IMG/VR virus record: IMGVR_UViG_3300032229_000588 | Location: 1 to 64,000 of that record | Direction: 5' to 3' (one strand) | Length of the DNA stretch: 64,000 nt | DNA from: a virus | Shown here: positions 10,130-32,895 of the stretch, in pieces | Numbering within the stretch: position 1 is the stretch's first letter | Layout: every line of letters starts with the position of its first letter | Program-made: the position numbers and the translations under genes | Notes under the pieces: generated by a model | What the model was told of the DNA's origin: nothing | The model's input: only the letters and a program-made list of their open reading frames with translations | The model's database searches: none

Positions 10130-10442
10130 AATAATAGAAATAGTTATCTAAAGCCGCTTTATAGTCTTGTAATGAAGGTAGTAGTGGATAAGGAATAATC
10201 AATACCGCACCATCGAATATATTATTTTCCAAACCACCAAATTGAGGGTTAGCTTGTAAAATTAACCAACCAAAATATGGTGAGTTATAATACTCTTGAG
10301 ATACCACATCTAATCGACTACGAGCCACTTTATATATGTAAGACTTATCTGTTGGTTTTTGAGGTAATTGCACAAAAGGAACAACGGTTTGTTCACCATT
10401 AATTAAAAAATCACTATACCTATTCCAATATTGATACGCCAT
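10119..10442 (-). CDS. 53: Baseplate wedge protein, gp53/LysM-like
   Basis: 107 residues with the layout of the T4 gp53 family: an N-terminal RYSDFLINGE segment, then a LysM-like core in which SRLDVVSQEYYNSPYFGWLI and LQANPQF correspond to the repeated pattern 'dRLDxIaxxyYgdpxlwWvixxaN', ending with an IIPYPLL strand. T4 gp53 is 196 residues, so this is a short version. In T4 the protein clamps adjacent baseplate wedges together. The gene shares one base with the end of the 1690-residue baseplate gene (TAATG overlap) and overlaps the giant gene downstream by 11 bases, so the three are translationally coupled. Confidence 0.72.
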   Translation of the reverse strand: MAYQYWNRYSDFLINGEQTVVPFVQLPQKPTDKSYIYKVARSRLDVVSQEYYNSPYFGWLILQANPQFGGLENNIFDGAVLIIPYPLLPSLQDYKAALDNYFYYYGR

Positions 10443-13400
10443 TAGTTAAACTTCGCTTTTGATATATATACGTCGGCAGATAATTCATCATTCCACGTTT
10501 TATTATTTGTATTTTGGTTTTCAATCGAACCTAACCCTTTGATTAAAGTTTCTTGAGGTTTTGTTCCCGCATTTTCAGTCGTGTAACTGAATACACGTTT
10601 TTTAGTTGGATAAGGGGTGTATTTTAAGAAAGGTTCTAATTTAACTTTTTCTTGACTTGTTATAAACTCTTTAGTTAAATTATTTTCTTCATTAAATAAT
10701 GGTTTTGCAATTTTATCCCAATATGCATCAAACTGTTCGCTTAATTTAGTACCGTCCCATCCATCACCAATAAGCCCCTGATTATTAATTATATTACCAA
10801 TCATAGCATTTTTAAAGGTTTCATATTTTTTTGAATCAACAACATCATCAGACAATAACATATATACCATTTTAAATGTCGTATTTTCAAATGTTGCTGT
10901 TGGACTTAAGTTAACATAACTTTGATTTTTAGAAATTGGTACAAATACTTTTACCCCTTGAGGGAAAGTATAATTTGGCGGGAAAACTAAATAAACTCCA
11001 GCATATAATTTACCGTCGCCAGGATTTAAGAAAGAACTTGGAGTCATTACGACTTTATTAAATTCAGTAATTCCACTGTTAATTTTTTTGATATCAAGTA
11101 CCAATTCTTCTAATGTGTTTGTAACACCTTGAGAACTAGTATCAACCTCTAAAGTTGGTATTGTAATGTATGTAATAACATTTCCATTTTTTTGTTGTGA
11201 ACCATCAGTACCAGTATTCGTAAATGATGGAACAGTATATGAAATAGTATTAGCTCTAGCAATATAACCAACATAAGTTTGTTGGGTATTAACAATACTC
11301 TGAGTAATGTTAGTTACCGCATTTTGATACGTTCCTCGTTTATCGTTAAGTATTTTAGCATAATTTTCTTTTACTTGTCGAATTACTTTGTTTGAAAAGT
11401 TTTTTTGAGAATTATCAATAAATTGAATAAATCCTTCGTCACCTTGTTTAACATCTTTAATTAAGTCGTTGAAAATATCATCGATTCTTTTTTCAAAATT
11501 ATATGGTTTTCCAAATAAAATAGTATCACTGTTTTCAGTTAACAAGAACTTACCTTGTTGATAATTTCTCTCTAACATCCACTGTTGACGTAAAGCGTTG
11601 TTATACTGATTTACAGCTTCTTTATTTTTATTTACAACATTTGTAAAATAATTTTGTGTTTCAGCCACCAACTTATCCATAAAAGTTTGATAACTAATAG
11701 TACCTGTTTGACCCGTTTCACTAATAACATTTGTCAATATTGTACCAATTGTACTTTCATTTGATAAACCATTGTTTGGTTCCGCACTATTGATGGATGG
11801 TGGTGGTACATTAGATAATGCCGCAAATTGTAAAAATTCTTTATCCAATACTTGATAACTTGTATCGGTAACATCTGCCCTATCATCATAAATCTCAGTA
11901 TTTGCATAGTAGTTAAATGTTAGTGCGTTCTGTAATCTATCAACAGACTCTTTCAATCCACTACCACCAACAAAGTTAAATTGCATCTGAACTTTAGCAA
12001 TCATAGGTTGAACCCCAATACCTTCAGGGTTAATATCTAAATTTTCATAACTTATACTCAAACTTGTTGGTATAATCTTGGTATTATAAAAGTCTCCAAC
12101 CCTTAAAATAAGAACTGGTGGAGCCCCAAATGCAGTGTTAGTAGCATTATTATATTCTAACACATCCTTACCCCCAATAGACTTAACCACAGGTATTGTA
12201 TCACCAGGTCTCATACATTGTTGTAAGAAGGTTAATCTCGTATTTAAACCTTCAGGTGTTGTTGAGTGGAAAGCTGGTTGGAAAAACTTTAATTTATCTT
12301 TAAGATTATCAAACACCATTGGTGTTTCTTCTTTAATAACTTCAAAATAATCACACTCAGATAAAAGAGCTCTTAAAACTCTTTTTGTAATATTATCTCT
12401 TGGTGCCCAAGTTTCTTCAACTGTTGTTTGAGTCTCAGTTGTTGTAACAACATTACCCGTAACAACTGTTTGTGTTCTTTGTGCAGGAGTTGTAGGTATT
12501 GGTTGCGGAACCTTTAAATTAGATTTAATATTAGAAATATATGCCCTTCTACATGACATAGCATTTATTGTATATATTTCTTTAGAAACTGATTGAGTGT
12601 CACCACCAACAGCTTGACCATCGTTGTCAGTACAATTCACAACATTCCCTACGGGTGAAAGTCCCTCAATGGAATATGGTGCTTGAGTTGTTTTAGATTT
12701 TAAAGGTTGTGATGTTGTTTGTTCTCCAAAACCTGTACCACTAAGTACTAATAATCTTTTTTCTTTCATCCATTTGGATGTTGCAGGATTGTTTTCAAAA
12801 AATTTAATAACAGAATTAATTCTTCGAGCCGACAATGATTTGTTATACGCGACCGTTTGAGGGGCAGAACAACTTGAATTAACATAAACAGTTACAGTAC
12901 CGCTTTCACTATTTTTTAATTGTTCTGCAACATCAATAGCGAATTGTTTAGCAACTTCGTAGTTTGGCATAACCACAGTATTATAAAACTCATCCAATTG
13001 TGGTCCATTTGATTTTTTAGAATATGTTGGTTTTTCACCAATATATTCGGTATACATTTCTTCATAGTTTGGAGATGTTTTAGGTTGTGGATAGTCGTTT
13101 GAAAAATAAAATCCAAGTTGCTTATACTTGTTAAAATAATCTTCACTACCTGCGCCACTACCTCCCGAACCAGAAGCTCCTCCACCACTATTATTTGCGG
13201 CAACTTGGTCAGTTACAGTTATCTCACTAACCGCATATTGCATCTGTTCTTTTGTAATCTCCTTTGATGTTATCGCTTGTTGGATTTGGAACAAATCGTT
13301 AGGGTTAATTGTATAATATTTTTTAGCTAATTCATATAGGTCGTATTTTCTACATCCAGCAAAGAATGAATCTAAAATACTATCAATTCTTGGTTTGTTA

Positions 13401-15514
13401 GTTTCGTTAGCTAAAACCTTATTTACAATAACATTCAATACTGATGGGTGGTCAACCACAATATCCCAACTTAAACTACCACTTCTACTTGTATTTTTAT
13501 AAGTATAAATTGGTTCAGGTCTTCCAATAAAGTCATTACCTTGCCAACTTGCCTGAACGGACTCATTGAATGTTAGATTATATGGTGGGAACCACATAAC
13601 TCGACCTCCATTAGGTCCTCTCTCACACACCGCCAAATCTGAAACCGAATAACCTGGAGTATTTGATGTTGCCCATGCCAAGTTTTCTAATGAGAACATA
13701 TACTTTTTAGCATAAGCGTTATTCATTGTTCCAATTATATTTGTTGAGTCTTGCCCCCCTTCTTGTTTGTTTGGAGCAATGTTAAGGTTGTATGTCTTAT
13801 CTAAAACAGACCAAGCAAATCTTCTACCTTCGGTTGTAATACCGTCAGTTTTTTGAAGGTCGTTGTATTGTAAGTAAGGAATGTCTTTGGCAAATACACG
13901 ACAATATTCAGTTCCGACTTCTTGTCCAATAGCCCCAACATAACTTAACACTCTTGAACCTTTAGTCATTTCTTTGTATCCATCGTTGAATACCTTACTG
14001 ACTTGGTCAATTGCATTACCCGCATGTTTTAAACGATTACCACCTTGTGGTTGACTATCAATAATTCTTTGGGTGTCGTCAAGGATTGAACCTTCTCTGA
14101 ATGTTCTTTGAGTAGACTCAGTCGAGTTGTATGATGATGGTTTAAAGTCCTCATCTTCGTTTGTAATCTCTCCACCAATACCAACTTTCTTACCCGCATT
14201 ACCTTTATACTTTGGAGATACCCATGTGAATCCACCTTCAATACCCCCACCATTACTGTAAGTCGGTCCGTTAGCACCAAGTCTAATCTCTTTACTTGGT
14301 CCCTCATATAATTGAGCCAGTACTTCAGGTCCATAAACAGGTGATTGTTGTTCAAATCCAAAGGCATTGTTTGGAAGTGCCCCTGATGGAGAAAAGATTC
14401 TTGATGGGTCTGATGTTGTTGAACCAATATAATAGTTGGCATTGTTTGTGTTGGTACCAACAAGAGCACCACCCAATCTATCAATTAAAGTTCTATCGTA
14501 ACTTGGTTTATATTTGTTAAAGTTAATGTTCTTAAACAATAACGATTTTTGACCTTGTCCTGTATTTTCGTAAAATATTTGAGAACCAGTCTTACCAGCA
14601 CCTAAAAGATTACTAATTAAATTACCTACCGCAGCAATAGGATTACCAAGAAGTGCTTGACCAATCGTTGAAGGCTGTGGTGGGTTAACATTTGGGTCCC
14701 AATATGAACCAGGTATAGTTGAGAACGGTACTTGACTTCCCGCAAGACTCAATCCAAATTGTGCAGCAGCACCAATTGGGTTAGAAGGTACCGTAATATT
14801 ATAATTTGGTTCAATTAAAGGTACATTACCTGTTAAAATATTAACAAGATTACTACTACTATTAACATTTAATATGTTGGCTTTACCTAAAGTTTCTCTA
14901 ATGATTGCTCGTCCAATTCGGTCTTCAAATTCTTTCTTTAAAGTTTTGGCACCTAAACGAGCAATAAACGAGTCAGCACTCAATAAACCATTACTACCTT
15001 GAGGGTCAGGGTTTAATAATATTGATATTGGTCTATAGGATGATGGATTAAATCTTGGGTATGGTTGTCCGTTTGCAGGTCTATCTTGGTCAGGAGTAAC
15101 AACTTCTAAAGACACAACCGCTTCACCCGCATCAAAATTATTTGGACTTGAGTAAGCGTTTAATGGTCTCCATAATTGAGTTGCTGCAAATCCTGTATCA
15201 ACAATGTGTGCGTCTTGTTGTCCAGGTCCGTATTCACCTTGGTTAGACGTTGTGTTTAAATTACCCGTTAAGTCAGGAGCAAACTCATATCCCCCCTCAT
15301 TACCCCACCTGTTAAGTGGATATTGTTTGTCGGCAAAAAATGTTGTATCAATTAAGAAATCGGGTGAATCAACAGGTGTTAAATCTTGTTGAATTACTTC
15401 ATAAGTAATTGGTGGCGTAGCAGGACTTGGCGATTTAGCATAAGGTACTAAATTACGAGTCATCAGTTTTTTTCTGAATCCTTCGGTGCTAATATAATCT
15501 AACGGACTACCCAT
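10442..15514 (-). CDS. Large baseplate/tail-tip protein with OmpA-like domain
   Basis: 1690 residues. The N-terminal half is proline-, glycine- and asparagine-rich and includes a block near residues 640-740 (MWFPPYNLTFNESVQASWQG; RSGSLSWDIVVDHPSVLNVI) typical of myophage proteins that bind the tail tube end. Residues about 780-790 form a Gly/Ser linker. Residues about 860-1010 look like an OmpA/peptidoglycan-binding domain (NKSLSARRINSVIKFF and a later CRRAYISNI). The following part (DFYNTKIIPTSLSISYENLD, then MQFNFVGGSGLKESVDRLQN) resembles baseplate hub proteins. The tail region is helical with many charged residues. It lies between the tape measure and gp53-like genes, which supports a baseplate or tail-tip location; a cell-wall contact role is inferred. 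Confidence 0.68.
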   Translation of the reverse strand: MGSPLDYISTEGFRKKLMTRNLVPYAKSPSPATPPITYEVIQQDLTPVDSPDFLIDTTFFADKQYPLNRWGNEGGYEFAPDLTGNLNTTSNQGEYGPGQQDAHIVDTGFAATQLWRPLNAYSSPNNFDAGEAVVSLEVVTPDQDRPANGQPYPRFNPSSYRPISILLNPDPQGSNGLLSADSFIARLGAKTLKKEFEDRIGRAIIRETLGKANILNVNSSSNLVNILTGNVPLIEPNYNITVPSNPIGAAAQFGLSLAGSQVPFSTIPGSYWDPNVNPPQPSTIGQALLGNPIAAVGNLISNLLGAGKTGSQIFYENTGQGQKSLLFKNINFNKYKPSYDRTLIDRLGGALVGTNTNNANYYIGSTTSDPSRIFSPSGALPNNAFGFEQQSPVYGPEVLAQLYEGPSKEIRLGANGPTYSNGGGIEGGFTWVSPKYKGNAGKKVGIGGEITNEDEDFKPSSYNSTESTQRTFREGSILDDTQRIIDSQPQGGNRLKHAGNAIDQVSKVFNDGYKEMTKGSRVLSYVGAIGQEVGTEYCRVFAKDIPYLQYNDLQKTDGITTEGRRFAWSVLDKTYNLNIAPNKQEGGQDSTNIIGTMNNAYAKKYMFSLENLAWATSNTPGYSVSDLAVCERGPNGGRVMWFPPYNLTFNESVQASWQGNDFIGRPEPIYTYKNTSRSGSLSWDIVVDHPSVLNVIVNKVLANETNKPRIDSILDSFFAGCRKYDLYELAKKYYTINPNDLFQIQQAITSKEITKEQMQYAVSEITVTDQVAANNSGGGASGSGGSGAGSEDYFNKYKQLGFYFSNDYPQPKTSPNYEEMYTEYIGEKPTYSKKSNGPQLDEFYNTVVMPNYEVAKQFAIDVAEQLKNSESGTVTVYVNSSCSAPQTVAYNKSLSARRINSVIKFFENNPATSKWMKEKRLLVLSGTGFGEQTTSQPLKSKTTQAPYSIEGLSPVGNVVNCTDNDGQAVGGDTQSVSKEIYTINAMSCRRAYISNIKSNLKVPQPIPTTPAQRTQTVVTGNVVTTTETQTTVEETWAPRDNITKRVLRALLSECDYFEVIKEETPMVFDNLKDKLKFFQPAFHSTTPEGLNTRLTFLQQCMRPGDTIPVVKSIGGKDVLEYNNATNTAFGAPPVLILRVGDFYNTKIIPTSLSISYENLDINPEGIGVQPMIAKVQMQFNFVGGSGLKESVDRLQNALTFNYYANTEIYDDRADVTDTSYQVLDKEFLQFAALSNVPPPSINSAEPNNGLSNESTIGTILTNVISETGQTGTISYQTFMDKLVAETQNYFTNVVNKNKEAVNQYNNALRQQWMLERNYQQGKFLLTENSDTILFGKPYNFEKRIDDIFNDLIKDVKQGDEGFIQFIDNSQKNFSNKVIRQVKENYAKILNDKRGTYQNAVTNITQSIVNTQQTYVGYIARANTISYTVPSFTNTGTDGSQQKNGNVITYITIPTLEVDTSSQGVTNTLEELVLDIKKINSGITEFNKVVMTPSSFLNPGDGKLYAGVYLVFPPNYTFPQGVKVFVPISKNQSYVNLSPTATFENTTFKMVYMLLSDDVVDSKKYETFKNAMIGNIINNQGLIGDGWDGTKLSEQFDAYWDKIAKPLFNEENNLTKEFITSQEKVKLEPFLKYTPYPTKKRVFSYTTENAGTKPQETLIKGLGSIENQNTNNKTWNDELSADVYISKAKFN

Positions 15515-15555: not shown

Positions 15556-17397
15556 TCATTGGTAACTAATAACACCTGAACCTTTTGTATCTTTTCCAAG
15601 AGTGGCAACATATTGTTTAAATCCTTCACTATTGAATATTTGAGTTAATTGTTGTTGTGTTAATCCATTGGCACCAACAGGACCATCTATAGTTATTTTA
15701 ATACTACCCGTTACGTTATTTGTAACATTAGTTGTTTTTGGTTGAGTGGTTTCAATTTGTTTTGACGCCATTTTAGATTGTATTGTTTCACCTAAAATTT
15801 GAGCATCACTAATTGGTTTTACATTTGCTCTTTCTTTTACCGCCTCAGCAGCTGCTGTTGGTCTACCCACAGCATTTAAAACTTCATTAGCATATGTCCT
15901 AAATTCTTTTTCAATACCACTTGAACCTTTAACATTTTTACTTGTTATTTCTAAAACATCTTTAAGTGCTTCCATACCTTTATCACCAAGAGTTCCAGCC
16001 TGTTTAAGAATACCATCTTCCAAAGCCTTAATCTTTTTGGCAAAATCATCTTGGGACAATTTACCAGCATCTTTTTCAACAAACAACGCCCTCATCTTAT
16101 CAATTGCACCTGTAACACTTTTAGTAATCTCAGCACTTTCAGGAACTGTTTTATCAACAGCCTTTGCTAATGCCCCCATAATTCTGTCCGCACCCATAAG
16201 GTTTTCACGAATTACTGGTGTAGCTGCAACACCAAAAGTACCTTTAGCAAGGTTAGCCCTAAGGGACGCATCTATATTTTCTAAAACCCCTAATTGACTT
16301 ATCGAAATATCTTCAAGTGTTTTAGGTCTGTTTTCTTGAATCTCTTTTAATTTATTAAATTCGTCTTGAGTTAAATCACTTAATTTCTTTTGTTCAATAA
16401 TACCTGTTTGGTCATTTTTAAGTTGGACAACATATTGACCGTCTTTCATTGTCGCCATATTTGCCAACAATTGTTTGTCCTCTTCTTTTTCAAATTGTAT
16501 TTCAGGACTAATCGCAGATATTCTTTTGTCCAAATCTGCCGCAGCTAAAGCCGCCTTACTTAAAGAACCAGCCGACATTCCCGCTTCTTGTTCAATTTCC
16601 TTTAACATTAAAACACCTTGTGGGTTTATTTTAAATGTTTTCGTTTTTTCGTCAAACTCTGTAAATTGTTTTGCGGCTTTAATAATACTATCTTGTAATC
16701 CTGAAGGGTCAGTCAATGATTGATTCATTAATGCAAATGGGTCAGTTAAGTTCCCAATAGACACTCCTAATCTTTGTAAACCTGCCGCGGTTTCAATTGC
16801 ACCTTCAGGCGTTAAAACTTTTTCAGCGAAATTAAACGTCTCTTGCATATCAAACCTCAACATTGAAGCTTGAGCCGCCATTTTTGCCATACCTTGAACC
16901 CCACCTTCAAATTGGTATCGGTTCATTTTGGACATGTTTTCATTAACATCTCCCATTACATCCTTAGCATTTAATCCAACACTTTGAATGTATTCAATTG
17001 AACTTTCAAGGTTTGTACCTATTTGAGATGCTTCAATACCGACTTCCGCAAAATTATTAACTAAGTCCTTTGATGTTCCACCTAATAATGTCGTAGCCGC
17101 ATATAACTTTGAAACTTGTTCTTCAGTGGCAATTACATTTCGTTTTGAACCTTCAGCAATTTCTGCCATTGTTCTAGATGCCGCAGCAGCATCCCCACCT
17201 AAACGAATGACACCCGCAGCAGACCTTGCAACCGCGTCCGCCATTTCATCCATTCGGGTTCTTCCTTGGAGAAACGCTTTGTTCAGCTCTTCAGCTTGTT
17301 CAAACATGTCTCCCATTGACTCAAGAATTCTGTCAATTGGTTTACCAATACCCTCAATCGATTTTTTTAGATTTTCAAAATCTTCTTGTGATGCCAT
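15556..17397 (-). CDS. Tail tape measure protein (T4 gp29-like position)
   Basis: 613 residues, strongly helical and Ala/Glu/Lys-rich, with long coiled-coil stretches (residues 1-110 and 400-520) and a small beta-rich C-terminal piece (TNNVTGSIKITIDGPVGANG). The length is close to T4 gp29 (590), and the gene directly follows the tube gene and the chaperone pair, the standard place of a tape measure. Such proteins fill the tail lumen, set tail length during tube polymerisation and are ejected with DNA. I see no lytic domain. A hairpin and a TATTTAT element lie just before its start, so it may also be transcribed or processed separately. Confidence 0.75.
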   Translation of the reverse strand: MASQEDFENLKKSIEGIGKPIDRILESMGDMFEQAEELNKAFLQGRTRMDEMADAVARSAAGVIRLGGDAAAASRTMAEIAEGSKRNVIATEEQVSKLYAATTLLGGTSKDLVNNFAEVGIEASQIGTNLESSIEYIQSVGLNAKDVMGDVNENMSKMNRYQFEGGVQGMAKMAAQASMLRFDMQETFNFAEKVLTPEGAIETAAGLQRLGVSIGNLTDPFALMNQSLTDPSGLQDSIIKAAKQFTEFDEKTKTFKINPQGVLMLKEIEQEAGMSAGSLSKAALAAADLDKRISAISPEIQFEKEEDKQLLANMATMKDGQYVVQLKNDQTGIIEQKKLSDLTQDEFNKLKEIQENRPKTLEDISISQLGVLENIDASLRANLAKGTFGVAATPVIRENLMGADRIMGALAKAVDKTVPESAEITKSVTGAIDKMRALFVEKDAGKLSQDDFAKKIKALEDGILKQAGTLGDKGMEALKDVLEITSKNVKGSSGIEKEFRTYANEVLNAVGRPTAAAEAVKERANVKPISDAQILGETIQSKMASKQIETTQPKTTNVTNNVTGSIKITIDGPVGANGLTQQQLTQIFNSEGFKQYVATLGKDTKGSGVISYQ

Positions 17398-17426: not shown

Positions 17427-17453
17427 AGAAGGACTAATTTTTTTAGTCCTTCT
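17427..17453 (-). other. Hairpin between chaperone and tape measure genes
   Basis: An 11-bp perfect inverted repeat (17427-17437 with 17443-17453) with a five-base loop covers the stop codon of the 59-residue ORF. On the minus strand the stem is followed by TCTATTTATATAG rather than a long T run, so it may be a weak terminator, an mRNA-end or a processing signal. It sits immediately before the tape measure leader. Confidence 0.55.
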
Positions 17454-17622
17454 GATTATCTTCTATCCATTTATTAAGTAGATATTTTCTAACAAATATT
17501 GGCATCCTCTCAAAATCTTGATAAGAAACCTTCATTAACGTAGTTAAATAATAAAATTCGTCGATTTGACTTTTCCTATACTCAGAAGAAAGGGCGAAAA
17601 AAGTCGACCCCAAAACCAACAT
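17443..17622 (-). CDS. Short ORF, probable frameshifted extension of tail assembly chaperone
   Basis: A 59-codon reading frame from the ATG complementary to 17620-17622, overlapping the end of the preceding 247-residue gene by 41 bases in the +1 frame. The C-terminal 40 residues have protein-like character (DEFYYLTTLMKVSYQDFERM then PIFVRKYLLNKWIEDN), the kind of short helical module seen in the T portion of phage G/GT tail chaperones and at the position of T4 gene 51. The first ten or so residues merely shadow the other frame. I therefore think it is mainly expressed by frameshifting, giving a fusion of about 293 residues; independent initiation at an internal Met (30-residue product) is also possible. 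Confidence 0.6.
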   Translation of the reverse strand: MLVLGSTFFALSSEYRKSQIDEFYYLTTLMKVSYQDFERMPIFVRKYLLNKWIEDNQKD

Positions 17623-18325
17623 TTACTGTTAGTCTTTCTCCTGACGGGGTCATAATTGTTTTGTTCATGTCTAATCTTGGTTCATTTTCATTCATAAAGT
17701 TTCTAATGAACTTTGAATCAGCAATTGGCATTGACTCAATAAACTTAGCAATTTGTGCCTTATCTCTTGAACCGTCAACCTCTAATATTTCTTTTTCCAT
17801 TCTCCAAGTAACTCTCGGAACAACTCGACCTTGTGGGTATGTTGAAGCCATACGATTAATATCTTGAATCTCACCGTATGATAATGGTTTAATTTTAATT
17901 GTTGATTGTGATTTTGGTAGCATTATAGTAAATGTTCCGTCCTCATTTGGTTTTTGATTACTAATAATAGACAATTCATCTAACATTACTGTGGTTTGGA
18001 ATTGTTTCTTAGTGGTGGGGTCTGTAACATTTAATGTCATTTCAGGACCAAACGCAGTATTTCTTAAAAAGATAAGAATCGCCTCAACGTCACCTTCAAT
18101 TAAGTCTTCAACTTTAATATCTGGTTCGTATATTTTAGCTCTTAACAAACTCATTGTTAAGTCATTAGCACCACCCATCAAAATGTTTTCATCTGATGCG
18201 GTAAGGTAACCAACTTTAATTGCCTTCTTCTTATTTTTGTAAAACACACCTTGTGAAGGTAGTTGAACCACGTCATGTGGTAGTGTGAAATTGTCTTGAC
18301 CGTAGTCTCTTGCTTGATTGTCCAT
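17582..18325 (-). CDS. Tail assembly chaperone / gp26-type baseplate protein
   Basis: 247 residues. The N-terminal part (FTLPHDVVQLPSQGVFYKNK) and the central PLSYGEIQDINRMASTYPQG segment match the T4 gp26 family (Pfam T4_baseplate), with the family's usual aromatic C-terminus (GVGVDFF-like, here NVGFGVDFFRPFF). T4 gp26 is 208 residues and was long called a hub component; comparative work places it at the position of the tail assembly chaperones of other phages. The gene lies between tube and tape measure, exactly where lambda-type G/GT genes lie. Near its 3' end a run of six T precedes a +1-frame ORF, suggesting a programmed frameshift product. Confidence 0.66.
   Translation of the reverse strand: MDNQARDYGQDNFTLPHDVVQLPSQGVFYKNKKKAIKVGYLTASDENILMGGANDLTMSLLRAKIYEPDIKVEDLIEGDVEAILIFLRNTAFGPEMTLNVTDPTTKKQFQTTVMLDELSIISNQKPNEDGTFTIMLPKSQSTIKIKPLSYGEIQDINRMASTYPQGRVVPRVTWRMEKEILEVDGSRDKAQIAKFIESMPIADSKFIRNFMNENEPRLDMNKTIMTPSGERLTVNVGFGVDFFRPFF
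17597..17602 (-). promoter_or_regulatory. Candidate programmed frameshift site (T6 run)
   Basis: On the minus strand the codons GAC TTT TTT CGC contain six consecutive T. A tRNA-Phe reading TTT could re-pair on TTT after a +1 slip (or a -2 slip), moving into the frame of the 59-codon ORF and avoiding the TGA 10 bases further on. Position near the 3' end of a chaperone gene just before the tape measure is the canonical setting for such events. Confidence 0.45.
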
Positions 18326-18327
18326 AT

Positions 18328-18363
18328 AAAAAAATAACCGTAAAGTTTATTAGCTTTACGGTT
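18328..18363 (-). terminator. Terminator after tail tube gene
   Basis: A 10-bp perfect stem (18336-18345 with 18354-18363), loop of eight, followed on the minus strand by a T-rich run (complement of 18328-18334). It lies about 35 bases beyond the tube stop codon and would help give the tube gene a high-level separate transcript. Confidence 0.88.
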
Positions 18364-18397
18364 AAATATAAATGAATATGATTTTATGTAAATAGTA

Positions 18398-18886
18398 TTA
18401 GTATACTAACACACATCTGTCCATTCTTAAAGAAGCTGTGATATCCGCTAACGCATCCTGACTGTAAGATAACGCTCCGAAGTTTACATCAGTTAAGAAT
18501 GTTCCATAAAGAATCCATTTCTCAACAACAACTCCTGTAGGGTCCAACATTTCAAGGTCAATGTCTTTTTTGTAACCCGCAGCATAACCCATACGACCTG
18601 TCACTGATTCAGCGTGTAAACGAACCCACTCCATAAGTGCTTGAGCCGCAGAAGGTCCAATAGGGTCACGGAACTTAACACTAATTGGGTCCCAGTTAAA
18701 TCTACCTGCAACGAATGTAGATGTGTTTAAGAATTGAATTTCAGTTGCTCCAATCTTGATAGATGGTCTTGAAGCACTTTCAACAAACCATTCGTTAATA
18801 CCTAAACTTGATGGAAACCTTAAGATGAAACGGTTCTGGCGTTTCGGTTCGTAAGGTATCGGCATTTTCATTAATAAATCAGCCAT
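18398..18886 (-). CDS. 19: Tail tube protein, T4 gp19-like
   Basis: 162 residues, almost the same length as T4 gp19 (163). Family features: NRFILRFPSSLGINEWFVES near the N-terminus, an IEFLN-type strand (TEIQFLNTST) leading to the hallmark FNWDPISVKFRDPIGPSA, then EWVRLHAESVTGRMGYAAGY and a C-terminal WILYGTFLTDVNFGALSYSQ. Six copies form each ring of the inner tail tube that the sheath contracts around. It is flanked by its own leader with a GACTATATTT element and its own terminator, consistent with strong independent expression. Confidence 0.92.
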   Translation of the reverse strand: MADLLMKMPIPYEPKRQNRFILRFPSSLGINEWFVESASRPSIKIGATEIQFLNTSTFVAGRFNWDPISVKFRDPIGPSAAQALMEWVRLHAESVTGRMGYAAGYKKDIDLEMLDPTGVVVEKWILYGTFLTDVNFGALSYSQDALADITASLRMDRCVLVY

Positions 18887-19860: not shown

Positions 19861-22800
19861 TTAAATATTCTCAAACGAAGCTCCTGTTGGAGTGATGAAG
19901 AATTCGATATCGATGAATTCTAACGCCTTCGTAGGTTTTAAGTAGATTTTACCTGTTAATGTATTTCTATCTAAGTCTTCAGGTGAAGATGATACAGTTA
20001 CACGGAAATCGTATAAACCTCTGTCTCTTCTGATTGAATCTAAGATAGGGTTAACACTATCCAAGAATTGTTGTCTAACAATTTGGTCGTTTTGTTCGAA
20101 CAATAATCTTACAGCTACTGCGGAAATCAACTTACGAGCCTGAAGTAATAATCTTCTTACGTTCAATCTGTTAAGTGCTGTGTCAGCAACTTGTAATGTT
20201 TTATTACCCCAAATTACAGTTCCAACATCAGAGAAAGTTGCGATAGGGTTAATTCTACCTTGATACAATGTATCTCTATCTGTTTGTGTAAGTTTTTGTC
20301 TAGCTTTGATTGAATTAACAAGACCTCTTGTGTAACCCGCTGATGCGAACCATGGGAATGAAATGTTATCGGTCAATGCCAAGTTTCTACAAACTTCACC
20401 TGTTGGTGGTAAATAGATTTGTGTGTTATTAACAGTATCACGAACTAAAATCCAAGGATAGTAAGTCGCTGTGTAGTTAGAGTCAATTCCTGTATTATCC
20501 AAGTTGTCAACCGCTTCCTGTGAGTAGATAACATCTAAAGAGTTAGTTGAGTCTGGTGTATACATTCTATAGTCAGGTGTTGTTGCAATATAAACAGAAT
20601 CAGCTCTTGAGTATTGAACCATATCAATTGCTTCCTCAACTAGGTTTGAGTTGTTTACATAGTCAATACTCGCAGTTGCAAATACATTTATATTTGTAGC
20701 TTCAGGGTTTGCAAATGTTAAGATACCAAGTAAGTATGCGTAGTAGTCAGTGTTTGCAAAATCCTGAGTATTGTTTTGAACAACAATTCTCTTAAACATA
20801 CCGTCACCTGTTGCAGTTGGGTATCTTGATGAAGGATATGCTCCAGCCAAATAACCTGATGCCCCTAATTGGAATCTATCTTCGTTAGTTCTCCACTCTC
20901 TGTAGATATCCCAACCATCAAATCCACCTGCAAAACATACTGTATATTTTCTTGAGTAGATGAAGTAGTATGGGTTTTCTTGAGTTTCAGGGTCATTTCT
21001 AAAATCCGCAGTACCACATTCAAATGCTGTTTGTCCACTTGACATTGAAGTATTTGAAATAGTTACAACAGTCGCTCCTGAGTCCATGTGGAAACCTTTA
21101 CTTAATACATTCCATTTAATTGAATCTGTTGCAGTTTCCCAACCTGTTTGTGGGTTTTGTTTTCCTTTATAAGTTAAGAATGATTCATCAATACCATATT
21201 GAGTTGAGAAACCTAAATACGCTCTTCTTACAATATCACCTGGAGACTCAATAGAATTTGAACCTCCTGTTGCAGTACCAAATGGTGGATTAGCAATAAC
21301 TTCACCAGGGTAGTCATATTTTGTTTTGTATTTAGGGTAAGGTGATGGATATACCGCAACATCTTCATATTCTCTTTGTGTATATCCGTAGAATCCACAA
21401 GGAATTGCGTCGATTGGTGCCTCATCCGCCATCTCAACCATTATATACTTTGAAATTAATGCGAATTCACCGTTAGATGAACCTATCTTTTTAGCGATGA
21501 AATTATTTGATGCTGGGTCCAAATTACAATTTGTGAATTTTTCAATTACAACAGGATTAGCATCAGTATCAAAGAAATTTCTAACCAATACATCAAACGA
21601 CATATTGTTAAATGATAAGTTTGCGATTGAAACTTTAATTTCAGTGTTTGCAGAATCACCGTCAGAAATTGAAATAAATTTAAATAAGTTATAAACTTTA
21701 TTACCTCTTAATTCAGAAACTAAGAATGGTGTTTCAGGTGATTGATATTTTTCTAAATTCCATGCGATTGATTGACTTGACTGACTTCTTGCATCAGGTA
21801 GTGCAATTAATTGAGAATTTAAACCTCTGATGTAACCTTGATTATAAGCATAATTTAAACTTCCTTGGTAAACCTCCTCAACAAAAATCGGAACTTCAAA
21901 TCTTGATTTTCCGAAATTATCAACACCTAAAACTTTAGTTAAGTATTTTGACGATGATGCCAACAATGAAGTCTCAAATGAGAATGTGTCATTATCTCTA
22001 GTAATACCTGATAGTAAGAAAGTTGCGAATGGTGAATCTGTAATACCTGAGTATTGACCAGTACTTATAAGTTGTAAATCTGTAAGACCACTTACTTGAT
22101 AAACAGGTCCGTGATTTTCACTTGTTGAACTATTACTATATAATGAAATACCTCTTGAACGAAGTGTTCCAACAACCATGTTATTAAACTCAGTATAAGC
22201 AGTACCTGTGAAAGTATAAGATTCACCTGTAATTACACCTGTAAATACACCTGTTCCACCTGTACTTAAACTACTTACAGAATAATAGAAAGAATAACCT
22301 GTATATGCATTTCCACTTGAGATGTCAAAGTTTGCGTAAAACCATGGGTCATTTGATGAAGATGATAAATCATTATCATTAAATGTGTTAACACAATTGT
22401 ATGGGTCAGTAACCGCATTGTATGTTGCAACTAAAGTATCGTAATCTGCGTTTGGTATTGCACCGTAAACAACTGAAGTAGTTGCCGATAATGATGGTGT
22501 ATCTAATATATTACCTAAAGTCGTATTGAAATCAGATTGTAGTGTAGATGTAGAACCATCACTTAATCTATATTGTGTATTCAAATTTACTTGCACTTGT
22601 GCAGGTAATTGACTAATATTAGTGAATGAGATAGTACTACCTGAAGAATATCCTGTAAATGTGGCACTAAAGGTAGTTGCGTTTGATGGGTTACCAATAG
22701 TCGTTGGGTCAACGTTGGCGATTAAGGATAAACTCCAAGATGGACCCGCATCATAACCCGACAAACCTAATACTCTCGTAACAAACAATTGGTTTGATTG

Positions 22801-23064
22801 TTGCAAGTATGATTTAGCAATGTATGCTGCCTCATATTTTGGGATTTGGGTGTTATAAAATTTAACGGGTTCGGTTCCGCCAAAGTAGGCTTGGAACTCG
22901 TCGTAGTTAGTTATGAATACTGGTTCGAACGCTGGACCTTTTAAAGTCTCACCAACAATACCTAATGTAGTTACCCCAACGCTCTGAGCTACAAATGATA
23001 AGTCGGTTTCAGATGTGTATACGCCTGGTGATACGAATACTTTTTGATTTACTTGTGTTGCCAT
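19861..23064 (-). CDS. 18: Tail sheath protein, T4 gp18-like
   Basis: 1067 residues. The N-terminus VFVSPGVYTSETDLSF and GIVGETLKGPAFEPVFITNY are the standard sheath opening, and the C-terminal domain (RRLLLQARKLISAVAVRLLF, later FRVTVSSSPEDLDRNTLTGK) is the conserved sheath core that forms the contractile mesh. T4 gp18 has 659 residues. The extra length lies mainly in a Ser/Thr/Gly-rich region around residues 110-380, probably surface-exposed insertion domains. Sheath subunits assemble around the gp19 tube and contract to drive the tube into the cell. It is preceded by a TATTTAT element (complement of 23099-23105) and followed by a hairpin. Confidence 0.93.
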   Translation of the reverse strand: MATQVNQKVFVSPGVYTSETDLSFVAQSVGVTTLGIVGETLKGPAFEPVFITNYDEFQAYFGGTEPVKFYNTQIPKYEAAYIAKSYLQQSNQLFVTRVLGLSGYDAGPSWSLSLIANVDPTTIGNPSNATTFSATFTGYSSGSTISFTNISQLPAQVQVNLNTQYRLSDGSTSTLQSDFNTTLGNILDTPSLSATTSVVYGAIPNADYDTLVATYNAVTDPYNCVNTFNDNDLSSSSNDPWFYANFDISSGNAYTGYSFYYSVSSLSTGGTGVFTGVITGESYTFTGTAYTEFNNMVVGTLRSRGISLYSNSSTSENHGPVYQVSGLTDLQLISTGQYSGITDSPFATFLLSGITRDNDTFSFETSLLASSSKYLTKVLGVDNFGKSRFEVPIFVEEVYQGSLNYAYNQGYIRGLNSQLIALPDARSQSSQSIAWNLEKYQSPETPFLVSELRGNKVYNLFKFISISDGDSANTEIKVSIANLSFNNMSFDVLVRNFFDTDANPVVIEKFTNCNLDPASNNFIAKKIGSSNGEFALISKYIMVEMADEAPIDAIPCGFYGYTQREYEDVAVYPSPYPKYKTKYDYPGEVIANPPFGTATGGSNSIESPGDIVRRAYLGFSTQYGIDESFLTYKGKQNPQTGWETATDSIKWNVLSKGFHMDSGATVVTISNTSMSSGQTAFECGTADFRNDPETQENPYYFIYSRKYTVCFAGGFDGWDIYREWRTNEDRFQLGASGYLAGAYPSSRYPTATGDGMFKRIVVQNNTQDFANTDYYAYLLGILTFANPEATNINVFATASIDYVNNSNLVEEAIDMVQYSRADSVYIATTPDYRMYTPDSTNSLDVIYSQEAVDNLDNTGIDSNYTATYYPWILVRDTVNNTQIYLPPTGEVCRNLALTDNISFPWFASAGYTRGLVNSIKARQKLTQTDRDTLYQGRINPIATFSDVGTVIWGNKTLQVADTALNRLNVRRLLLQARKLISAVAVRLLFEQNDQIVRQQFLDSVNPILDSIRRDRGLYDFRVTVSSSPEDLDRNTLTGKIYLKPTKALEFIDIEFFITPTGASFENI

Positions 23065-27175: not shown

Positions 27176-28705
27176 ATGAAAAAAACAGAAGCGAAAATCC
27201 AACAACTAGAGTTACAGATACTTGAAAATCACGTAACCAAAGAAAAAGAGTTGTTGATTACAGAAATGAAGAAAATCGGAATAGAAAAACTACCTTATTC
27301 CTACTCAGCCCTCAAACAGTTTATTGACCCTGAAACCATGAGTTTTCACTACAATAAACACTACAAAGGGTATGTCGATAAACTAAACGACGCATTATCA
27401 AAGAAAAAATACGGGGATTTAGATTTAGAAAAAATCATCAAAACAATCAGTCGTTTTGATAAAACAATTCGAAACAACGCAGGTGGAGCATTTAATCACG
27501 CTTTGTTTTGGAACATGTTAACTCCCGAACCCAAAAAACTTACTGGTGAACTTTACAAAAAGATTACAAAACAGTGGGGGACATTTACAAACTTTAAAAA
27601 AGAATTTGAAAAAGTTGCCAAAGAAAGATTTGGTTCAGGTTGGGTGTGGTTAGTTTTGACATCTCGAAACACCTTGAAAATTATGTCGACCCCAAACCAA
27701 GACAATCCATTAATGAATGTGATTGAAGGTGGGGGATTTCCGTTATTAGGTTTGGACCTATGGGAACATGCATACTATTTGAAGTATAGAAACAAAAGAG
27801 ATGAATATATTTTAAACTTTTGGAAAGTTGTGAATTGGGACTTTGTTACTAAAATGTATGAAATGAAAATTGAAACTAAATTATTAGAGTCGACAAAGAT
27901 GAAACAAGTTATTAGTGAAGGTAAATCTGAAATGTGTTCCAAGTCTGAAACAGAATTTTACAGAATGTTATTCAATGTAAACCAAGAAGTTAAATGGACT
28001 TACATGAATGGTATTAATAGAATCCTTAGAGATGCGTTTAGTGAAAACTTTATTGAAAAACCTGACAACAATCAATTATCGGGTGTCTACGATTTAGAAG
28101 GTACTGGTAGGTCGGTGATTAATAAATTGAATACGAATTACACAACGTTCTGTATTTTATTGAGAGATTTGAATCAAGTCATCTCAAAGATTCCAAACAA
28201 ACAACCAATCAGTTTTACAGACAAAACTCCTGCAGAACAAAAGAAAGAAGTCGAAAGATTTATAAGTGCATTGAATTACTTTAAAGATAGAATCTTTGAT
28301 AAAGACAGTTCAACCCTTCACAACATATTAAGAGTCTTAACTGAAAAAGATAAGGCGGGTAGTAAAAGAGAAGAAATCACCGCATCAATTCTTAAAAGAT
28401 TTTTTGGTAAATCCGCCAAAGTTGAATTGGTTGGTGAGTTAGGAAATAAGAAAGACGCAATACAAGGTGTAGATTTAGAAATAATTAAAGACGGTAAGTT
28501 ATATACCGCTCAAGTTAAACCATTCAGAGAAATGAAAGAAACTGAAGATGGGATTTCTTTAGAGGGTACCGCAAGTGTTAAATTATATAAGACGGATTGG
28601 ATGGTATTCCAACGAGGTAAGAACGTTTTAGTGTTCGACCAAAAACCAAAAATAGTTGATGGTAATTTTCTTTTCCCGTCTGACTCACTTTTATATAACA
28701 TATAA
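27176..28705 (+). CDS. Fe/Mn superoxide dismutase fused to PD-(D/E)XK-like nuclease domain
   Basis: 509 residues in two parts. Residues about 35-225 are an iron/manganese superoxide dismutase: KLPYSYSALKQFIDPETMSF leads to metal ligand H58, then H62 and Y66 of the second-shell motif, GGAFNHALFW gives H108, and LGLDLWEHAYYLKYRNK gives D194 and H198. All four metal ligands are present, so catalysis of superoxide dismutation is plausible. After a helical linker, residues about 395-475 read as a PD-(D/E)XK fold: GSKREEITASILKRFF (E399/E400), GVDLEI (D433) and YTAQVK (Q446, K448). I know of no such fusion. The 5' leader has TATTTAT (27147-27153); the following gene is a neck protein. Confidence 0.78.
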   Translation: MKKTEAKIQQLELQILENHVTKEKELLITEMKKIGIEKLPYSYSALKQFIDPETMSFHYNKHYKGYVDKLNDALSKKKYGDLDLEKIIKTISRFDKTIRNNAGGAFNHALFWNMLTPEPKKLTGELYKKITKQWGTFTNFKKEFEKVAKERFGSGWVWLVLTSRNTLKIMSTPNQDNPLMNVIEGGGFPLLGLDLWEHAYYLKYRNKRDEYILNFWKVVNWDFVTKMYEMKIETKLLESTKMKQVISEGKSEMCSKSETEFYRMLFNVNQEVKWTYMNGINRILRDAFSENFIEKPDNNQLSGVYDLEGTGRSVINKLNTNYTTFCILLRDLNQVISKIPNKQPISFTDKTPAEQKKEVERFISALNYFKDRIFDKDSSTLHNILRVLTEKDKAGSKREEITASILKRFFGKSAKVELVGELGNKKDAIQGVDLEIIKDGKLYTAQVKPFREMKETEDGISLEGTASVKLYKTDWMVFQRGKNVLVFDQKPKIVDGNFLFPSDSLLYNI

Positions 28706-29853: not shown

Positions 29854-30189
29854 ATGGCAATTATTAGAACAATACCGTCCACAAGATTAATCAATGGTGA
29901 GATTCTTGAAACATCGGAAATTTCAATCGTATCTGAAAAAGAATACAGAACAAACGGTGAAGCGTGTGTTATTATTAGAAACGTACAAGAATCAACAGTA
30001 ATATTGGATTCAAAAACAACAGACCACGTTGTAGTTAAATCCATGACATTACTAACAATCAAACCAGATATCGGTAAAATTGATGAAGATTACGATGAAA
30101 TCGTTGCGGACAAATATTCTTGTATTGAGTTTAGATTCTGTGCAGGAAATTGGTATATCCTATCATCAGACGGTCTCAAGAATTCCTAA
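29854..30189 (+). CDS. Small beta-rich phage protein
   Basis: 111 residues, unrecognised. It is strongly beta with short alternating hydrophobic strands (EACVIIRNVQESTVILDSKT), and ends in an aromatic motif FRFCAGNWYILSSDGLKNS of the kind that closes small capsid or fibre-decorating domains in other phages. Start is three bases after the neck gene stop, so it is probably co-translated with it. Its final 24 bases overlap the convergent DNA polymerase gene on the other strand, a very tight junction with no terminator between. A virion decoration role is only a guess. Confidence 0.62.
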   Translation: MAIIRTIPSTRLINGEILETSEISIVSEKEYRTNGEACVIIRNVQESTVILDSKTTDHVVVKSMTLLTIKPDIGKIDEDYDEIVADKYSCIEFRFCAGNWYILSSDGLKNS

Positions 30190-32895
30190 TTTTTCTTTCC
30201 AATCTGCTTCAGCAAAATCATACATGTAGTCTGGTTCAAGACCTCGTTTTTCCCAATATTTCAATTCTTGTTCAGTAATATCAAGTACGTCTTCTTGTAG
30301 TCTATCTTGGTCACCTTCACCTAATGGATGTCCATTGATAAGTTCACATTGTGATTTAGTGAAGATACCTCTTTTTTCAGGGTCATTAACAATTAAGTTA
30401 TTTCTTACCTCATCTTGGAATACAACCATTAATGGTTCCATTCTTTTGTTAAATGTGGTAATCGCTCTTGGTACATTGTAATCACCTGTTAAGTTTGGAT
30501 TGTTTTCCAAGATGTCCTTACTCAACATATAACAGTTAATCTGAACACCATCACCTTTTTTCTGAACATCACCATGAGATGCCTTCAAACCATTATTTAC
30601 ATACATGATAACATCCCCAAGATTTACTGCAAGGTTTTCTTGTAGTGCAAGTTCCATGTGAGCCATTCTACTCATACTATTACCCGCCTTAGTTTTTGTG
30701 GTTAATCGTTTCTTATAATCATCAAGAGTCAACTTAACCTTAGCTCGTTGTGCAATCTTACTTAATGGAATTTGTTTGTCAAAAATCTTTTGTAGGTATT
30801 CGTAGTAGTATTCAACAAATGCCTGACCATCACCTTCTAACAACATCTTAATACCTTTGTCCAAGAACTCCTCGATATAGATTGGAAGTTTCTTTGACTT
30901 GATACTGTTACCTGTCAATTTGATTTTACCCTTGGCATCCATAACCGCATAGTTCTTACGAGCCAAGTTAATACATGAAGGCCAAACACCATCCGTATCG
31001 AGTGCCATCTCACCTCTCATGAAGATATCGTTATACTCGGCAACGTCAGCTTCGGGACCATAATATTCTTTACCCTCTTTAACTTTCCAATTCAATCCAC
31101 GACCAACATATACTCTGTCTTTAGCGTCGTCAGGAGTCGAGAAGTTCACACCGTCCGTATCCATTACCAATGGAACATATCCTTTCGTCATAAAGAACTT
31201 AATCATTTGACGAAGGTATTGTCTACCTGTACAAGTAATTTGTTCTCCCATATACATGTCACCCCAAGCAAATACCTGTGGTGCTGACAACGCACCGAAC
31301 ATCGAGTTGATGAAAATCTTAATCGGTAATTGTTTGTTACCGTATGACTCTGATTTCTTACGGTCAGTATCATAGTATTGTTCCGCAAGTTGTTTGTACT
31401 TGATACGAGTATCACGGAAATACTTTAACATTCCTTTCATCGCACCTGTAACATCACACTTAGGGAATACATCATGTACCAACTGAATAGATGGATACAG
31501 AGACGAGAAGTCGAGCTTAAGTACGTTCTTACTATAACCAACCTTAAGTAGTCGTGAAAGACCTCCTACGAAGTCTGTCTTACCCTGTTTAGCGGGGATT
31601 GCAAGTCCGTGTTTGTAAGACCAAGCCAACATCAACATTTTCCATAATGTGGCGGTACCCATGGTTGAAACCCTTTCATATGTTGTTGGAATCATCGCCG
31701 CCAACAAGAACGAACCTTGGTTGAACTCTTGGTCAACCTTTAGGGTTTCATCTAAGTCATCGTCAAGATACATCTCGACAATCTTATCACCTGTAACTTT
31801 TTTGTAGACGTTAGGGAATTTAATATCTAAGTTATCGTATTCAGGATTGTCAGCTTTTTTGTATTTACCGTTCTGAGTATTTAACCAAAACTCTTCTTTG
31901 TTAAGATATAACTTACCGATGTTATCGTGTTCTATATAAACACGACTCGGTGATTCAGCATTGATGTACTTGGTAATGTATTTCAAACCTGCCGCTTTGA
32001 TACTTGAATTGATTGCCTGAGCTCTACGAACTGCGTGGATAATATCAATTACATTATATCCCCAAATTGAAGTTTGAGTATATGTCTCTACCTCGTTGGC
32101 AAGTTTCAACATCCCGTCTTTTCTTGTAAATGAATGTTGGGGGTGTAGAGATTTACAAATCTTTTTTGGGTCAAGTCCCAAGATTTTACAACGTTCAAAT
32201 ATCCAATGCCAGTCAAAGTTCGCCGAGTTATATCCACCAATGATACTTGGTTTTAATTCGTCAATTACTCGGAAGAATTCGATAATCGCATTTCGTTCTT
32301 CAGATTCATCGAAACATTCAATAACTCTGTGGTATCCTTTATTTGTTTTAATTCCAATCATGAATATACGACCGTCCTGTGGTTCAAGAGAGGTCGTCTC
32401 CAAGTCATATACGAGTCGGGTGACTTCATCGTAGTTCTCGAATCCCTTAAATAGTCGTTTTTCTTTTGAGATGAGGTATTGTTCTACAGGTGGGAGGATA
32501 ATAATTTTATCCTTCGTTTTTTCTCCCCATGGGTCACATCCACCTTCTCTAAAGAATTGGATAAGTTCACGATAACCTTTAAGAGATTTAACCATAAAGG
32601 TCATACCCTTTTCTAATCGCTCATCACCATGAGTTTCCAATTTGTCAATCATGATACCATGTTTGGTCATGGCTTCCTTTTGAGCGGCTTTGGAACCACC
32701 GTAAAAGTTGATATTGCGTAAATCACCTACCCAAGCGAATGGGGTAAATGTATCCTTACGGATTTCTTTTCCTTTACCAGGAATTTCTTTTATTTTGTAA
32801 ATGGAGTTGGATGCGTAGTCAAATTCGATTGCTACAATAAATTCTTCAGGGTCATTACCATGTAAGAATGATTCAATTTCTTCGTTAGATATCAT
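30166..32895 (-). CDS. 43: Family B DNA polymerase, T4 gp43-like
   Basis: 909 residues (T4 gp43 has 898). N-terminal 3'-5' exonuclease motifs: Exo I VYDLETTSLE (about 162-171) and Exo II GGYNSANFDWHW (about 219-230). Polymerase motifs: A LKLDFSSLYPSIQL (about 456-469), B KIFINSMFGALSAP (about 520-533) and C VMDTDGVNF (about 577-585). Motif C has DTDG in place of the usual DTDS, which keeps both metal-binding Asp. It is the replicative enzyme of the phage, working with the UvsX, gp32 and helicase genes elsewhere in the window. It lies alone on the minus strand among virion and glycosylation genes, converging with and overlapping its right-hand neighbour by 24 bases. Confidence 0.95.
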   Translation of the reverse strand: MISNEEIESFLHGNDPEEFIVAIEFDYASNSIYKIKEIPGKGKEIRKDTFTPFAWVGDLRNINFYGGSKAAQKEAMTKHGIMIDKLETHGDERLEKGMTFMVKSLKGYRELIQFFREGGCDPWGEKTKDKIIILPPVEQYLISKEKRLFKGFENYDEVTRLVYDLETTSLEPQDGRIFMIGIKTNKGYHRVIECFDESEERNAIIEFFRVIDELKPSIIGGYNSANFDWHWIFERCKILGLDPKKICKSLHPQHSFTRKDGMLKLANEVETYTQTSIWGYNVIDIIHAVRRAQAINSSIKAAGLKYITKYINAESPSRVYIEHDNIGKLYLNKEEFWLNTQNGKYKKADNPEYDNLDIKFPNVYKKVTGDKIVEMYLDDDLDETLKVDQEFNQGSFLLAAMIPTTYERVSTMGTATLWKMLMLAWSYKHGLAIPAKQGKTDFVGGLSRLLKVGYSKNVLKLDFSSLYPSIQLVHDVFPKCDVTGAMKGMLKYFRDTRIKYKQLAEQYYDTDRKKSESYGNKQLPIKIFINSMFGALSAPQVFAWGDMYMGEQITCTGRQYLRQMIKFFMTKGYVPLVMDTDGVNFSTPDDAKDRVYVGRGLNWKVKEGKEYYGPEADVAEYNDIFMRGEMALDTDGVWPSCINLARKNYAVMDAKGKIKLTGNSIKSKKLPIYIEEFLDKGIKMLLEGDGQAFVEYYYEYLQKIFDKQIPLSKIAQRAKVKLTLDDYKKRLTTKTKAGNSMSRMAHMELALQENLAVNLGDVIMYVNNGLKASHGDVQKKGDGVQINCYMLSKDILENNPNLTGDYNVPRAITTFNKRMEPLMVVFQDEVRNNLIVNDPEKRGIFTKSQCELINGHPLGEGDQDRLQEDVLDITEQELKYWEKRGLEPDYMYDFAEADWKEKLGILETV

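Follow-up and report, generated by a model that had tools for sequence, protein, structure and literature searches.

A gp26-type tail gene in a 64,000-nt window of viral DNA (the whole stretch analysed, from a 77-kb IMG/VR virus contig) is overlapped at its 3' end by a second ORF, which is conserved and under strong purifying selection. Judged from the sequence, there is strong support for a G/GT-like (TAC-N/TAC-NC) pair of tail assembly chaperones produced through a programmed frame change. It comes from the sheath-tube-gp26-T-tape measure gene order, a conserved slip site, a conserved helical T domain encoded in the +1 frame, and the homology of the family's fusion proteins to T4 gp51; such a pair had been proposed in an earlier note on this DNA, and these lines of evidence bear it out. 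We consider it probable that the tail chaperone pair of an uncultured contractile phage related to T4 is encoded here and that the fusion product of the locus arises by +1 ribosomal slippage. We infer the ribosome as the slipping agent, as well as the efficiency of the shift and the chaperone function of the products.

Tail Gene Neighbourhood and the gp26-Type Protein

The genes follow each other on the minus strand in the order tail sheath (19861..23064, 1067 aa, phrog_23, 3.9e-55), a 279-aa ORF, gp19-like tail tube (18398..18886, 162 aa, phrog_4542, 3.7e-24), gp26-type gene (17582..18325, 247 aa), +1-frame ORF (17622..17443), a 613-aa gene (15556..17397) and a gene for a 1690-aa protein. The 613-aa product is a putative tape measure protein, named from gene order alone, as the family matches sought for it were not found; the gene in this position carries a tape measure annotation in the phages SP-15, LIS04 and immuto. 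The chaperone locus thus sits between the tail tube and putative tape measure genes, and the +1-frame ORF ends 45 nt upstream of the latter. Terminator-like hairpins flank the chaperone unit on the minus strand, one between the tube and chaperone genes (18335-18364) and the other separating the T ORF from the tape measure gene (17427-17453). The 1690-aa protein (10442-15514, minus strand) contains a weak OmpA-like stretch (861-932) and is perhaps a fused peptidoglycan-binding hub protein.

The gp26-type protein, the candidate short chaperone (G or TAC-N), matches the T4_baseplate family PF12322 with E 6.7e-8 and 32.9 bits, above the curated cut-off of 24.5 (T4 gp26 scores 8.8e-64 and T4 gp51 3.9e-52), and phrog_150 with 8e-14. 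For the 293-aa fusion, the E value against phrog_150 is 3.2e-15 and the match is extended to profile position 262. The N domain is present once in the 77-kb record, and a second full-length gene with N and T domains, as in T4, is absent from this record, which may be a fragment.

An AlphaFold2 model of the fusion (from a 45-row alignment) has a mean pLDDT of 83. Its N domain is modelled with confidence, whereas the linker at residues 243-248, which coincides exactly with the junction, has low confidence, and the T domain forms a separate three-helix unit. Viral matches in Foldseek were largely gp26-type proteins, 53 of them with E <= 0.001. Neither the sequence search nor the fold search of the PDB returned a related solved structure, and the search for relatives of the window at the DNA level among named phages was likewise empty.

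Slip Site and Conservation of the +1 Frame

The last codons of the gp26-type ORF are GAC TTT TTT CGC CCT TTC TTC TGA, giving a protein that ends in GVDFFRPFF at the TGA stop (17582..17584), while the +1 reading of the same stretch is ACT TTT TTC GCC CTT TCT TCT GAG and continues for 46 codons beyond this TGA. The slip site TTTTTTC (17596..17602, minus strand) is read TTT TTT C(GC) in the zero frame, and the A-site codon CGC (17594..17596) accounts for only 4 of the 15,098 codons counted in the window. The earlier note had the gene ending with a T6 run; the run is there, but it occupies codons 242-243 of the 247, a little short of the gene's end. The +1-frame ORF of 59 codons, as well as the junction peptide GVDFF/ALSSEYR of the 293-aa product, were given correctly. 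Beyond the junction, the +1 frame encodes the 50-codon T domain (ALSSEYRK...NQKD, 17446..17595, with its stop at 17443-17445), which is supported by its conservation, selection and three-helix model.

By itself, an open stretch of 46 codons is weak evidence, as 18.8% of random stretches of this kind in the window are open. Chance is excluded by the conservation across relatives. All 80 close IMG/VR relatives (79-98% protein identity) keep the 247-aa length, TTTTTTC and an open +1 frame; they reduce to 37 distinct sequences, the window included, among which the slip site is invariant and the +1 frame is in every case free of stops beyond the end of the gp26-type gene, whereas both other frames of the T stretch contain stops in all 37. 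The conservation of the frame in relatives, which had been suggested as a check, is thereby confirmed. A -1 frame product was also considered for the window clade and rejected, since the -1 frame is closed in 37 of 37 sequences and the site lies outside the canonical -1 heptamer class.

The dN/dS of the T stretch is 0.054 in the +1 frame, compared to 1.95 and 0.78 in its other frames and 0.135 in the gp26-like body. Together with the three helices of the model, this agrees with the conserved-looking helical ending that had been noted before. Upstream of the T run it is the zero-frame residue (Val/Ala) that is kept and the +1 residue that varies (S/L/Q/R/W), while downstream the +1 residues LSS(D/E)YRK are kept. 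The constraint therefore switches frames across the T run, which places the frame change at this run. In the named relatives, the T domain is either missing from the annotation or listed there as a hypothetical fragment.

RNA Structure at the Slip Site

On the minus strand, an RNA hairpin at 17606-17651 reads GACCCCG...AGACTAACA(GTAAA)TGTTGGTTT-TGGGGTC and is followed by GAC and the T run, so that it lies 3 nt upstream of the run (dG -19.5, z -2.8). In 16 of the 18 distinct clade sequences, the hairpin exceeds synonymous recodings in stability (p<0.05), with a mean z of -3.1. When few representatives were used, the clade gave p 1e-7 and the other +1 members z -1.2 with p 2e-4, while the -1 members showed no such effect at the same folding length and reached z -1.0 (p 0.02) with a shorter one. 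Paired bases fill 95.3% of the cells of the hairpin alignment. Covariation (0.140, compared to 0.101 after shuffling and at most 0.045 for slid positions) is modest, with three pairs changed on both sides among related sequences. The +1 clade thus has a conserved 5' hairpin, on the unexpected side of the slip site. In the window, a stimulatory structure 3' of the site was not found (z 0.1 and 0.5), and the Rfam search returned nothing credible.

Proposed Mechanism

According to the proposed mechanism, most ribosomes would read to the TGA and release the 247-aa short chaperone, with the TAC-N role of lambda gpG, while a minority would shift +1 at GAC TTT TTT CGC. The peptidyl-tRNA-Phe would re-pair from TTT to the overlapping TTC one base forward, and the rare CGC in the A site, being slow to be read, would give time for this. 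A shifted ribosome would then add the 50-residue helical T domain, giving the 293-aa fusion with the TAC-NC role of gpGT and gp51. Reforming in the wake of the ribosome, the hairpin 3 nt upstream of the T run probably impedes movement backward and favours movement forward. The short and long forms are expected to coat the tape measure protein, recruit tail tube subunits and be lost from the finished tail.

The P-site codons of the +1 sites can re-pair one base forward (TTT-C, TTT-T and CTT-T). In an E. coli 70S system, a hairpin beside the E site raises +1 and lowers -1 frameshifting, and the effect of the upstream hairpin on +1 was also seen with a hungry A-site codon (PMC6321510). Stimulation by an internal Shine-Dalgarno sequence is unlikely, as 29 of the 30 window genes checked have no SD-like motif before them.

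Distant Relatives with the +1 Layout

The +1 layout is also present in Microcystis phage Mel-JY01, Bacillus phage SP-15, Listeria phage LIS04, Streptococcus phage GXN1 and an uncultured huge phage, whose gp26-type proteins are 23-31% identical, and, found through Mel-JY01, in Flavobacterium phage immuto and Rhodothermus phage RM378. Two further scans brought about 70 distinct distant sequences with this layout. Nearly all of them carry a site of TTY TTT T type followed by CCT, together with a +1-frame peptide FFGL...Y...MP..LR.., and an NTT-Y slip codon occurs in nearly all distant +1 sequences. The codon after the slip site is CGC in the window and TGG in most relatives. The T domain of the window clade aligns with the distant +1 T domains (hhalign E 3.3e-8). 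Two members inside the +1 group, L187 and L193 (at about 2700), encode T in an ORF of its own, whose ATG lies 6-9 nt beyond the gp26 stop, an apparent loss of the frameshift.

Alternative Explanations

Because of the 5' hairpin, which the earlier note had missed, we leave a minor share of the probability to transcriptional slippage, in which the nascent hairpin would make RNA polymerase drop one U from T6 and the same G/GT pair would result. The hairpin, 3 nt and T6 C of the window resemble a known hairpin-driven slippage signal, and also an intrinsic terminator, while the run is a T7 in 55 of 75 distinct relatives. There is a precedent in the IS630 element of Roseiflexus, where a stem-loop immediately upstream of T5C5 causes RNA polymerase to omit one base, giving transcripts one base short and the same +1 direction (PMC5009743); the stem-loop of the window is adjacent to its T run in the same manner. 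According to that review, even a single rC:dA mismatch is non-viable at T5C5 (PMC5009743). Realignment of the run by one base with few mismatches is possible in T6 and T7 members, but impossible in members with broken runs (TTTCTATTC, TTCTTTCGT, TTTCTTTGG and TTCTTTTGG), which would need mismatched hybrids, while ribosomal +1 re-pairing is possible in all of these. Therefore, since broken runs do not fit slippage by RNA polymerase and the family should share one mechanism, the ribosome is clearly preferred as the slipping agent.

It seems improbable that the T ORF works as an independent small gene, translated from its own ATG (17622) or by re-initiation and never fused, even if this ATG is conserved in the window clade, T has its own ATG in another frame in L187 and L193, and L086 has a TAATG restart. 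Of 72 usable distinct +1 sequences, 23 have no ATG, GTG or TTG at or before the slip codon of the +1 ORF, so that their conserved T start is reachable only by a frame change. Furthermore, the stretch from the ATG to the slip site is unconserved in the +1 frame, and the ATG lacks an SD at the usual spacing. We give a still smaller chance to -2 ribosomal slippage on U6, a kind of slippage reported for some U6 sites and used by Mu, in which the T6 run would let the P-site TTT re-pair two bases back to give DFFF-ALSS with one extra Phe, since this re-pairing fails in relatives with TTC TTT TGG, TTT CTT TGG and TTT CTA, and the site is without a 3' structure.

Recoding in the -1 and +1 Frames within the Family

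In cyanophage-type relatives, T lies in the -1 frame at 77 of 80 loci and the phase of the run is T TTT TTC, whereas in the +1 clade it is TTT TTT C with the rare CGC next. The -1 layout is likewise found in Rhizobium phages, PA5oct and Atu_ph07, while genes 26 and 51 are separate in T4 and Aeromonas phage Aes508. The window gene shares with cyanophage-type -1 genes (e.g., that of Synechococcus phage Sf-FS3) the family, the FF motif on the T6 run and T directly after it; the cyanophage-type loci differ in their -1 frame, an SD-like GGAGG upstream and structure downstream, the structure being upstream in the window clade. Across loci L198-L277 of the cyanophage type, some 30 nt upstream of the gp26-type stop, the GGAGG is near-invariant and lies about 9 nt before T TTT TTC. 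Downstream structure in the -1 class has z -2.9 compared to other 40-nt windows of the gene, with none upstream, and the GGAGG together with this stronger-than-average structure is the classical -1 design.

T4 gp51 is a PF12322 protein with a T-like end (phrog_150 13-280), and the fusion profile of the -1 class matches it with hhalign E 6.7e-15, or 3.6e-7 for the T part alone. The T domain of the window clade, taken alone, has no significant similarity to the cyanophage T domain or gp51, and its link to them runs through the motif, the position and the shared N domain. In the N-domain tree, a 99/99 branch separates the T4/cyanophage group from the +1 members, which make up a deep group of their own. 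This tree requires the -1 label to change twice and the separate-gene label three times; its details are unsure, because several branches are long. A tentative hypothesis, to which we give somewhat less than an even chance, is that the recoding direction switched in evolution, the T run moving by one base relative to the codons and the structure to the other side (3' for -1, a 5' hairpin for +1), and that the window clade holds a natural, conserved +1 site driven by a 5' hairpin in a translation system largely without Shine-Dalgarno pairing.

Relation to Known Systems

Chaperone pairs made by frameshifting are classical. Vladimirov, Gautam and Davidson (2022, Virology 566:9) are said to have identified gp26 and gp51 as the tail assembly chaperones of T4-like phages, and reportedly also describe frameshifting in some groups; the earlier note still regarded the role of gp26 and gp51 as unclear, which no longer holds. 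Chaperone pairs with +1 frameshifts are known too, e.g., in HSTV-2 (PMC5009743). The chaperone pair found here is therefore well supported but not new in kind, and what is added is the +1 direction in a large clade, compared to -1 in the cyanophage type, and the conserved 5' hairpin.

T4 gp26 (TAC-N) and gp51 (TAC-NC) share the N domain family with the window protein, and gp51 carries both N and T domains, but in T4 they are encoded by separate genes that lie on opposite strands, where the window has one gene and a frame change. As in lambda G/GT, a single gene ahead of the tape measure gene would yield both a short and a long chaperone, the long one gaining T through a frame change close to the 3' end; the N domains are compared here by role. 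The parallel to lambda, P2 and Mu that had been drawn before holds for this logic but not for the direction, which is -1 in lambda (on GGGAAAG) and P2, -2 in Mu and +1 here. The upstream hairpin, the slow A-site codon and the +1 direction are shared with the construct of Huang, Cho and Chang (2018, PMC6321510), a designed reporter, whereas the window would be a natural and evolutionarily conserved case. With the Roseiflexus IS630 element it shares an adjoining stem-loop on the 5' side of a T-rich run and a +1 product, the run there being T5C5 and in the window family T6, T7 or broken, with slip codons in phase.

The locus would supply the missing tail chaperone isoform for a large group of contractile phages, most of it unannotated. 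It also offers a natural comparison of -1 and +1 recoding inside one gene family, with the RNA structure on opposite sides, and the homologous -1 and +1 sites would allow the roles of 5' and 3' structures to be tested.

Host and Other Genes of the Window

An SD-like motif was found at one of 30 gene starts in the window, and this scarcity, together with the Flavobacterium and Rhodothermus phages among the relatives, suggests a host in the Bacteroidota. The first half of a 509-aa ORF (27176-28705, plus strand) is an iron/manganese superoxide dismutase (PF02777, 1.8e-39; PF00081, 2.9e-22), which is unusual in a phage. A family B DNA polymerase (30166-32895, minus strand) is closest to those of Salinibacter phages and not to that of T4, so that the description as T4-like fits the tail and gp32 more than replication.
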